A DNA stretch of 64,000 bases. Source: Chrysomallon squamiferum. Taxonomy: Eukaryota; Mollusca; Gastropoda; Neomphalida; Peltospiridae. The DNA lies in assembly GCA_012295275.1 (NCBI GenBank), contig CM022673.1, positions 18,445,810-18,509,809 of the forward strand, given 5' to 3'. A program made the position numbers and the translations under genes. Numbering within the stretch: the first letter of the stretch is position 1; each line of letters begins with the position of its first letter. A model generated the notes under the pieces. The model was not told the DNA's origin, did no database searches, and saw only the letters and a program-made list of their open reading frames with translations. Shown here piece after piece: positions 33,501 to 55,591 of the stretch.

Positions 33501-36500
33501 AATAGAAAACTATTATTCAGTTTAATTCATAACACAACCTCAACGAAGAGCAGTTAGTCAGACAGATTGAGAGACAAATTCTTTCAAAACATAAACATAT
33601 AATGAGTACACTATGAAACAAACCATGAAAACAAATAATTCATAAAAATAATATATAAGCACTTCATTTTTCAAAATAAAATTAAATCGTTTTATTACAT
33701 ATATATATTACTTACAAACAGAGGAATTTCTTTTCATTTGATTGGAAAATTTATCCACCATTTCGGTTCGTCCGGAGTAATGATTTTCAAGTTCCTTCAC
33801 TGCGTCTTTGTTGGAAATATTCTGCTGTTTCAAACATTGGCTGGCAGACTCCAACTCAGCAGAAAACGTTTTTTTGAAACTTTTAGACAGCTCGGCAGCT
33901 TGCTCCTGTACAGCCTTCATCACATCTTCGTCAGCCATCTTGTCAAAATGATACTCATCACAGTCAGGCTCCTTCTTCATTTCGCCTGATTGGCCTTCCT
34001 CTGGGAAAATCTTATCCACGTCAGGCACACTCAGTTCAAGGGACATGTTTAACCTTTTGGCGGCACATATCACTTTGGTAACGTTCTTGTTTTGTAACTT
34101 GGAGGATAACATTGAATTGAACTTGGAGAAGCAATTTTTCATTTTTGTTCGGTCACTGTTAGAGATGGTTTTGGTGCTTGCTTTTGTCAGATCTGTAGGG
34201 AGAAATACAATGAGATATTTTGATATGTGTGAAATAACCAACAGCAGTGTGCCTTTCTTTTCATTATTTTTTTCTTTCTCGTTCTTTAGTAATTTTTTTT
34301 ACAACGCTTTTTTAATCTTTTCTTTTTCTTCCTGGAGCTAGAAGTATCGTTTTTATTTATTATTTTAATTTTTCTTTTTTTTTTACTATTTTATTTTTTT
34401 TGTTTTTGACTCATTTTTTTTTTTGTTTTCATTTTCTGTTTATGTGACAGAGAAATACTGAAAATTGATTATCGGTGACATGTTTTCACTACTTCGGTGA
34501 TTCTGTGCTGTAAGTATTATTTAATAGTGTCACTATCACAACAGCTGTCATTTTTTTTTTATTTCCGTTTATCCCTTTCATACGAACATTTCACTGAAAT
34601 CTACCAACCATTTGAGACCAGTCGTTACTGTTTTCACGCTAGGGTTTTTATCATTCTCGCAACATTAATCTTATCATTTTCTTAGGAATGTTCTTATCAA
34701 TTTAAGAATACCAGTTTCACACTAATATATTTACCAGTTTCACACTCATATACTTACCTGTTTCACACAAATGTATTTACCAGATTCATTAGTGTATTTT
34801 TAACAGTTTCACACTAAAGTACTTACCAGTTTCACACTAAAGTACTTACCAGTTTCACACGAATCTCCTCCAAAAGAACCAGTACACTGACAATGTCCAG
34901 ATTTTACGTCACACGTCCCATGAGGACCACAACTTCCAGCAGAACATGAAGGTCGATTTTCTCTGTCTTCTGTGAAAACAACAGATGAATAATTGTAGTT
35001 TCTATTTAACCTCAAGATTAAAATTGTGACATATTCTTAGCAATTTATATATTTGAATGTTTAATGACCTCCTTTGAATTTAAATCTTGAGTTAATCTAC
35101 GTTAATTCTTGTTGTGTCATACCAAAAATACATGACTTTCAAAATTAAAAGTTTGATGGTTTTCCATAAACGCGGATTTATTTTTCATGTTCTATATTTA
35201 TTTAAAAGTGATATGTTATGTCATGAACCCGCTACTATTCACGACATGAACACGTTACTTTTCCGATATAATATAATGATATCTTTTAAATTATTTGTAT
35301 TACATACTATATGATGAACAAAATCTTCTATCGAGAAAAATCTATAAGACTTACCGTGAGAACTTTTGTTCACGTGATTGGAAAAAGTTTCCACCATCTG
35401 GGTTCGTCCGGAGTAGTGATTTTGAAGTTCCTTCACTGCGTCTTTGTTGGAAATATTCTGCTGTTTCAAACATTGGCTGGCAGACTCCAACTCAGCAGAA
35501 AACGTTTTTTGAAACTTTTAGACAGCTCGGCAGCTTGCTCCTGTACAGCCTTCATCACATCTTCGTCAGCCATCTTGTCAAAATGATACTCATCACAGTC
35601 AGGCTCCTTCTTCATTTCGCCTGATTGGCCTTCCTCTGGGAAAATCTTATCCACGTCAGGCACACTCAGTTCAAGGGACATGTTTAACCTTTTGGCGGCA
35701 CATATCACTTTGGTAACGTTCTTGTTTTGTAACTTGGAGGATAACATTGAATTGAACTTGGAGAAGCAATTTTTCATTTTGTTCGGTCACTGTTAGAGAT
35801 GGTTTTGGTGCTTGCTTTTTTGTCAGATCTGTAGGGAGAAATACAATGAGATATTTTGATATGTGTGAAATATCCAACAGCAGTGTGCTTTTCTTTTGTT
35901 TCTTTTTCTTTTTATTCTTTACTAATTTTCTTTTACAAGACTTTTTAATCTTTTCATTCTGCTCCTGGAAATAGATGTATCGTTTATTGATTACTTAATT
36001 TTATTTTTATATTTTATCTTTCATTTTTTTTATTATTATTATTTTTTTTTTTTTTTTTTTTTTTTTTTATTTATTTTATATTTATTTATTTATTATTACC
36101 TTTTCATTTTTTAATTATTATTATTTTTTTTTTTTTCCTCCTGGAGCTCGATTTATTTATTACCTGATTTTAATTTATTTTACTTTATTTTATTTTATTT
36201 TATTTTAATTTTTACTGATATATATTTTTAAATTCCTTGTTTAGTGATAGAGGAATAATGAACACTGTCGACCGGTGACGTTTTTTTCTTCTATTTTTGT
36301 GTTTATATAATATAACTAGTACTTAAAACGGTGATAACTAAAGATACCAGTTTTCCACAATTCCATGTGTCCGTTTCATACGAATTTCCATAAACATTTC
36401 ACTCAAATCTACGTAACTTACATCTAAAACCAGTCTCTATGATTTTTACACCAGTGTCATATTAATTTGACACTAATGTAACTATCAGTTTCAAACTAAT

Positions 36501-55591: not shown

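Follow-up and report, generated by a model that had tools for sequence, protein, structure and literature searches.

The analysed window, a stretch of 64,000 nucleotides from the genome of the vent snail Chrysomallon squamiferum (contig CM022673.1, hereafter C9, positions 18445810-18509809), carries on its minus strand a gene for a giant receptor with a REJ domain and a GPS motif, whose N-terminal part contains 14 copies of a unit with four cysteines (4C). The computational analysis described here suggests that these units are probably a previously undescribed extracellular domain of about 155 residues, which is all-helical, possesses four cysteines, is encoded by one symmetrical exon per copy and forms the distal ectodomain of the single-pass receptor, for which a rod mechanism is proposed.

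A tblastn search of the window with one 4C domain of the tandem array identified 12 copies, and a search with one of the array EGF exons likewise yielded 12 full-length copies. Together with exons 1 and 2, the 12 array exons (33716-52139) give 14 4C units, each of which is encoded by its own exon. Exon 1 starts at an ATG and ends with a GT donor; AG/GT sites, near-uniform across the array copies, flank exon 2 and the array exons, all of which have phase 1-1 wherever the frame is intact. The cysteines are spaced x21-x32-x39 in exon 2, x21-x34-x41 in the array copies and x19-x79-x37 in exon 1, in which a long G/S/T linker sits between the second and third cysteine. Exon 2 is clearly homologous to the array (BLASTP, 27% identity over 142 amino acids (aa), E 1e-12). 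No recognisable match of exon 1 to exon 2 or the array was found by BLASTP (best E 0.05-0.07); in a profile-profile comparison using hhalign with added sequences of the snail Gigantopelta, the exon 1 type joins the other types over 138 columns (E 6e-4, score 29.5; 200 column shuffles did not exceed 19.7, and a reversed profile scored 13.5), to which hhalign itself assigns a probability of only 28%. On sequence grounds, we regard all 14 units as members of one family, with exon 1 being the least certain of them. The four cysteines are present in 20 of 20 representatives, which were picked from the copies found and in one row of which the alignment program misplaces the third cysteine. An earlier note on this DNA had proposed 14 homologous units with the spacing C-x21-C-x32/34-C-x39/41-C in exon 2 and the array, five intact array copies and an N-glycosylated appearance. 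All 14 units were recovered exactly where it had placed them, the measured spacings and the five open array exons agree with it, and sequons are present in the 4C sequences.

None of the scanned 4C sequences reached the gathering cut-off of a Pfam-A model, and no NCBIfam model matched at its curated cut-off. Weak matches to DUF7934, E3_UFM1_ligase, DUF535, KNOX2, DUF7494 and bcl-2 (NCBIfam, E 0.0021) stayed below the cut-offs, and sequence matches in the PDB were not credible. The 4C domain therefore has no described family in the resources searched, as the earlier note had suggested from the sequence. The AlphaFold2 model of array copy 2 is helical (pLDDT 83.4, pTM 0.73), in agreement with the mostly helical fold that had been suggested. 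In a VIA view of Foldseek's 167 top chains, no known extracellular family stood out, although absence from this view excludes nothing. It is conceivable, though rather doubtful, that 4C belongs to a known helical family, for instance one with a four-helix-bundle or lipid-binding fold, from which it has diverged beyond the reach of sequence searches. No relative of 4C was found in viral contigs, Rfam gave no match at gathering score and no tRNA was detected. Protein searches with 4C words and with a single-domain alignment returned no match; this negative is weak, because the word search missed the Gigantopelta protein described below despite its length being within the allowed range, and the searches do not show that other molluscs lack 4C. 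Among the matches listed in literature searches for the REJ domain with EGF, tandem repeats, mollusc, oyster, gastropod, sperm and the two snail genera, there was no paper on these proteins, and the terms 'REJ', 'EGF' and 'polycystin' are absent from the main text of PMC7142155, PMC7736800 and PMC7895826.

The gene extends as a single unit from 55591 to approximately 15084 and, with exons joined by hand at splice sites, is open except for the frameshifted array exons. It encodes a signal peptide (by eye), the two 4C units of exons 1 and 2, 12 pairs of EGF and 4C, seven further EGFs, five cysteine-rich exons, which we take to be of the GVCGGD type, a REJ region, a GPS motif, a single helix that looks hydrophobic by eye, and a short tail; alternatively, the last exon could be replaced by read-through from the transmembrane (TM) exon to the next stop. 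The REJ domain matches positions 1-435 of the 452 of the Pfam profile (129.8 bits, cut-off 25), and the GPS motif (PF01825) lies upstream of the TM helix. A K319L-like PKD match remains below its cut-off (24.3 bits versus 27), as does the array EGF exon for EGF_2 (16.6 bits versus 22.1); the EGFs of the tail following the array are above the Pfam cut-off. Judged by these domains, the host protein is a variant of the known REJ/GPS receptor kind and is predicted to be membrane-anchored and single-pass. Of the possible 'new secreted domain' of the earlier note, 'new' is supported by the searches, whereas 'secreted' applies to a released ectodomain only, if it is released, because a hydrophobic helix follows the GPS motif. 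What the analysis adds to that first reading is the REJ/GPS gene down to approximately 15084, the occurrence of 4C at three loci, the Gigantopelta ortholog, a helical model and a likely cause for the frameshifts. A minisatellite at 21528-22085 (period 52, 10.5 copies) adjoins an exon of the REJ part.

The sea urchin SpREJ/PKD1 family shares the REJ domain and a GPS motif ahead of the first TM helix with the window gene. However, the window model lacks a PLAT domain, a multi-TM region and a C-type lectin domain: Pfam found neither PLAT nor C-type lectin in the C-terminal model of 1695 aa, which stops after one TM helix. A PLAT/LH2 domain after the first TM segment is described for each of the five human and the five sea urchin proteins, and thus not for every member of the family; SpREJ proteins are described with 1-11 TM segments and SpREJ1 with one EGF domain (PMC1934368). 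Since PLAT is missing and the model ends after one TM helix, the host is called PKD1/SpREJ-like and not a proven member. A further difference is the long 4C/EGF ectodomain, of which there is no mention for SpREJ in the account of PMC1934368.

The ortholog in Gigantopelta aegis, likewise a peltospirid, is LOC121381825, an uncharacterised protein of 3685 aa with 11 4C domains. It matches the 3' exons of the window gene in order, and the gene model is therefore checked in that part. Identity reaches 66% on the REJ side and 70% in most of the EGF tail; the second match of the protein search is another REJ protein with 24% identity and 37% coverage. Both proteins have the order EGF, cysteine-rich, REJ, GPS and TM as well as the same three 4C types, represented in the window by exon 1 (type 1), exon 2 (type 2) and the array (type 3). 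The arrangement of 4C, however, differs: LOC121381825 has the order 1-2-EGF-1-2-3-EGF-1-2-EGF-1-2-3-WAP-3, whereas the window gene has 1-2-(EGF-3)x12. The WAP domain of LOC121381825 (1881-1924, Pfam E 4.3e-10), located between two type 3 copies, is not traceable in the window (best tblastn match at E 4); conversely, two EGF exons at the end of the array in the window are seemingly missing from LOC121381825. Domains of the same 4C type share 28-44% identity between the two species, whose split is dated to 116 million years in PMC7895826 and to about 66 million years in PMC7736800. Sequence comparison thus indicates that 4C diverges faster than the cysteine-rich and REJ-side parts, as binding regions often do.

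When the Chrysomallon genome (404.6 Mb, 22 contigs) was queried with a single domain of the array, 53 matches were obtained, including some that are fragments of one exon, and further 4C loci emerged on C9 near 23.9 Mb (locus B) and on contig C13 (locus C). Locus B (C9:23887001-23959000) is a second giant REJ-type gene of the same plan with 42 4C units and at least 40 EGF places. The units begin with one each of types 1 and 2, continue with eight triplets built from three additional 4C subtypes and end with sixteen type-3-like copies. On its 3' side, exons resemble the cysteine-rich, REJ and GPS exons of the window (GPS, Pfam 33.9 bits). At least five of the 42 copies look, by eye, frameshifted at one end. 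Locus C (C13:23120036-23127285) consists of three type-3-like 4C exons, one of which has two cysteines beyond the four, and no match to the EGF-REJ part of the window gene was found within 33 kb around it. A nearby stretch at C13 23117844 is TSP1-like, but it had no Pfam match, and no TSP1 domain is claimed. When the genome was searched with a 4C subtype from locus B and a domain from locus C, no additional locus emerged at E 0.001. In total, the genome contains at least 59 4C units.

Seven of the 12 repeat units of the window (U2-U6, U9 and U10), taken together with their introns, share 99.5-100% of their aligned bases, and variants are carried by U1, U7, U8, U11 and U12. U8 and U11 (39874-41546 and 34970-36628) have a common first intron, which is off the intron of the other units at about 250 sites, as if two repeat lineages had mixed. 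In a tree of 18 domains, the resolution of which is limited by long branches, one branch separates type 1 from the remaining domains (100/100) and another does so for type 2 (90/98), and type 3 is unresolved (approximately unbiased test, p 0.32). The type 1 copies of Gigantopelta form one group (97/97), as do, more weakly, the type 3 copies of the window (80/89). Given the near-identity of the units, the different order in Gigantopelta and these groupings, separate growth or homogenisation of the arrays is probable.

Several observations weigh against the interpretation preferred here. In the assembly, seven of the 12 array 4C exons are frameshifted and five are intact, and the true copy number and the protein are therefore unproven. 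The ratio of non-synonymous to synonymous substitution rates between copies is mixed (1.84, 8.07 and, for a third pair, 0.12 in locus B; 0.64 and 0.71 for window pairs). Across the sixteen type-3-like copies of locus B, 24 non-synonymous and two synonymous distinct changes were counted, which is not significant (P 0.097), and some of the changes fall where frameshifted copies align badly. Furthermore, the fast divergence of 4C could reflect relaxed constraint instead of binding.

The pattern of the frameshifts bears on two alternative explanations. Thirteen indel events were located in the array 4C exons, 11 of which lie, by our own placing, in A-runs of at least four; homopolymer runs of this length, all four bases counted, account for 13% of the exon (binomial P 1e-8, which depends on the same placing). 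Nine of the 12 units (U2-U6 and U8-U11) have no substitution in the 4C exon relative to the unit consensus. Sequencing or polishing error in near-identical repeats therefore fits these data better than pseudogene decay, and the sequences point to such errors without proving them. The assembly was built from Nanopore reads and polished with short reads (PMC7142155), which are presumably hard to place in identical repeats. A non-functional pseudogene expansion in the process of decay, as the frameshifts in seven exons might suggest, is also difficult to reconcile with the 12 open array EGF exons, the open 3' part of the gene and the roughly 37 of 42 locus B copies that look open by eye, and we regard this explanation as improbable. 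Slightly less probable still is that the copy number is an assembly artefact with one or few real copies: some units do show 100% identity over their aligned bases, and indels occur in several, but five units have distinct intron or exon variants, and both the locus B paralog and the Gigantopelta ortholog are tandemly repeated as well.

The positions of all features of the window gene are compiled in Table 1.

Table 1. Exons and domains of the REJ/GPS gene, listed from its 5' to its 3' end with positions in the window
Feature	Position	Strand	Remarks
Exon 1: signal peptide (by eye) and 4C-1 (type 1, G/S/T linker)	54961..55591	-	matches LOC121381825 5-229, 31%
Exon 2: 4C-2 (type 2)	52978..53436	-	
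Array EGF exon 1	52563..52682	-	
4C array copy 1 (type 3)	51666..52139	-	intact
Array EGF exon 2	51161..51280	-	
4C array copy 2	50038..50511	-	intact; used for structure prediction
Array EGF exon 3	49533..49652	-	
4C array copy 3	48416..48888	-	frameshifted in A-run
Array EGF exon 4	47911..48030	-	
4C array copy 4	46787..47260	-	intact
Array EGF exon 5	46281..46400	-	
4C array copy 5	45165..45634	-	frameshifted; two of its three indels outside A-runs
Array EGF exon 6	44661..44780	-	
4C array copy 6	43543..44014	-	frameshifted
Array EGF exon 7	43039..43158	-	
4C array copy 7	41921..42394	-	intact; 3' end variant
Array EGF exon 8	41427..41546	-	
4C array copy 8	40258..40730	-	frameshifted
Array EGF exon 9	39754..39873	-	
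4C array copy 9	38635..39108	-	frameshifted
Array EGF exon 10	38131..38250	-	
4C array copy 10	37014..37486	-	frameshifted
Array EGF exon 11	36509..36628	-	
4C array copy 11	35355..35828	-	frameshifted
Array EGF exon 12	34850..34969	-	
4C array copy 12 (last)	33716..34192	-	intact; 3' end diverged
Seven EGF exons after the array	29885..33426	-	
Five cysteine-rich exons	26854..29568	-	72% identical to LOC121381825
REJ-containing ectodomain exons	17191..26554	-	Pfam REJ E 1.4e-37; matched by LOC121381825
Exon between REJ region and GPS	16756..16892	-	
GPS motif exon with HLT sequence	16175..16393	-	Pfam GPS 25.3 bits, cut-off 22.5
Single transmembrane helix	15419..15551	-	hydrophobic stretch, by eye
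Last exon, short cytoplasmic tail	15084..15153	-	splice inferred; likeness to LOC121381825 C-terminus by eye

Elsewhere in the window, an integrin beta VWA-domain exon of a neighbouring gene is located at 1542-1799 on the minus strand (Pfam E 1.8e-11), and a beta-lactamase-like serine hydrolase gene, both scanned pieces of which are under the Pfam cut-off, at 5414-8198 on the plus strand.

With respect to function, the 4C-EGF array is most likely a multivalent ligand-binding rod on a GPS-type receptor. The 4C-EGF pairs would form a long rod, which may bind a ligand on another cell or in the matrix, and unequal exchange between the symmetrical exons could alter the number of copies and keep them alike. 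Cleavage at the GPS motif, in which the HLT sequence is present, would yield a non-covalent two-part receptor, which might release its ectodomain or signal when the rod is pulled. Antibodies against SpREJ1 trigger the acrosome reaction of sea urchin sperm (PMC1934368), and a REJ protein has been described in the coral skeleton (PMC4890752); thus, fertilisation, matrix and symbiont contact are all candidate roles. The protein might be a REJ receptor on the surface of sperm, contacting the egg coat through its 4C rod and, like the repeats of abalone VERL, homogenised and fast-evolving, a possibility that we consider worth keeping in mind but unlikely. The REJ/GPS architecture in common with sea urchin SpREJ (PMC1934368), the fast divergence of 4C and the homogenised arrays are consistent with it, and VERL with its 23 ZP-N domains provides a precedent for gastropods employing repeated extracellular domains in fertilisation (PMC8830517). 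However, the REJ protein of the coral skeletal matrix (PMC4890752) speaks for other roles, and positive selection was not significant. VERL and the window protein both have many tandem repeats of one extracellular domain (PMC8830517), but VERL is a ZP protein of the egg coat, whereas a helical fold is predicted for 4C, in which the Pfam scans found no ZP match.

In addition to the preferred reading of a multivalent rod, we tentatively put forward a broader idea, in which our confidence is low: 4C may be a helical domain of the gastropod lineage outside the described families, serving on REJ/GPS receptors as a fast-evolving module of variable copy number for the recognition of gametes or symbionts, with arrays being homogenised per gene and species in a manner similar to VERL. 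If the interpretation proposed here is true, REJ/GPS receptors would carry in 4C a new module for recognition, which is missing from the family libraries searched and of which one genome contains at least 59 copies and the ortholog 11, and its arrays would clearly illustrate, with a case from nature, how exon arrays can expand and become homogenised independently of one another. Studies of expression, structure and binding in vent snails gain a defined target in this domain, whose profile could be used to search other molluscs.
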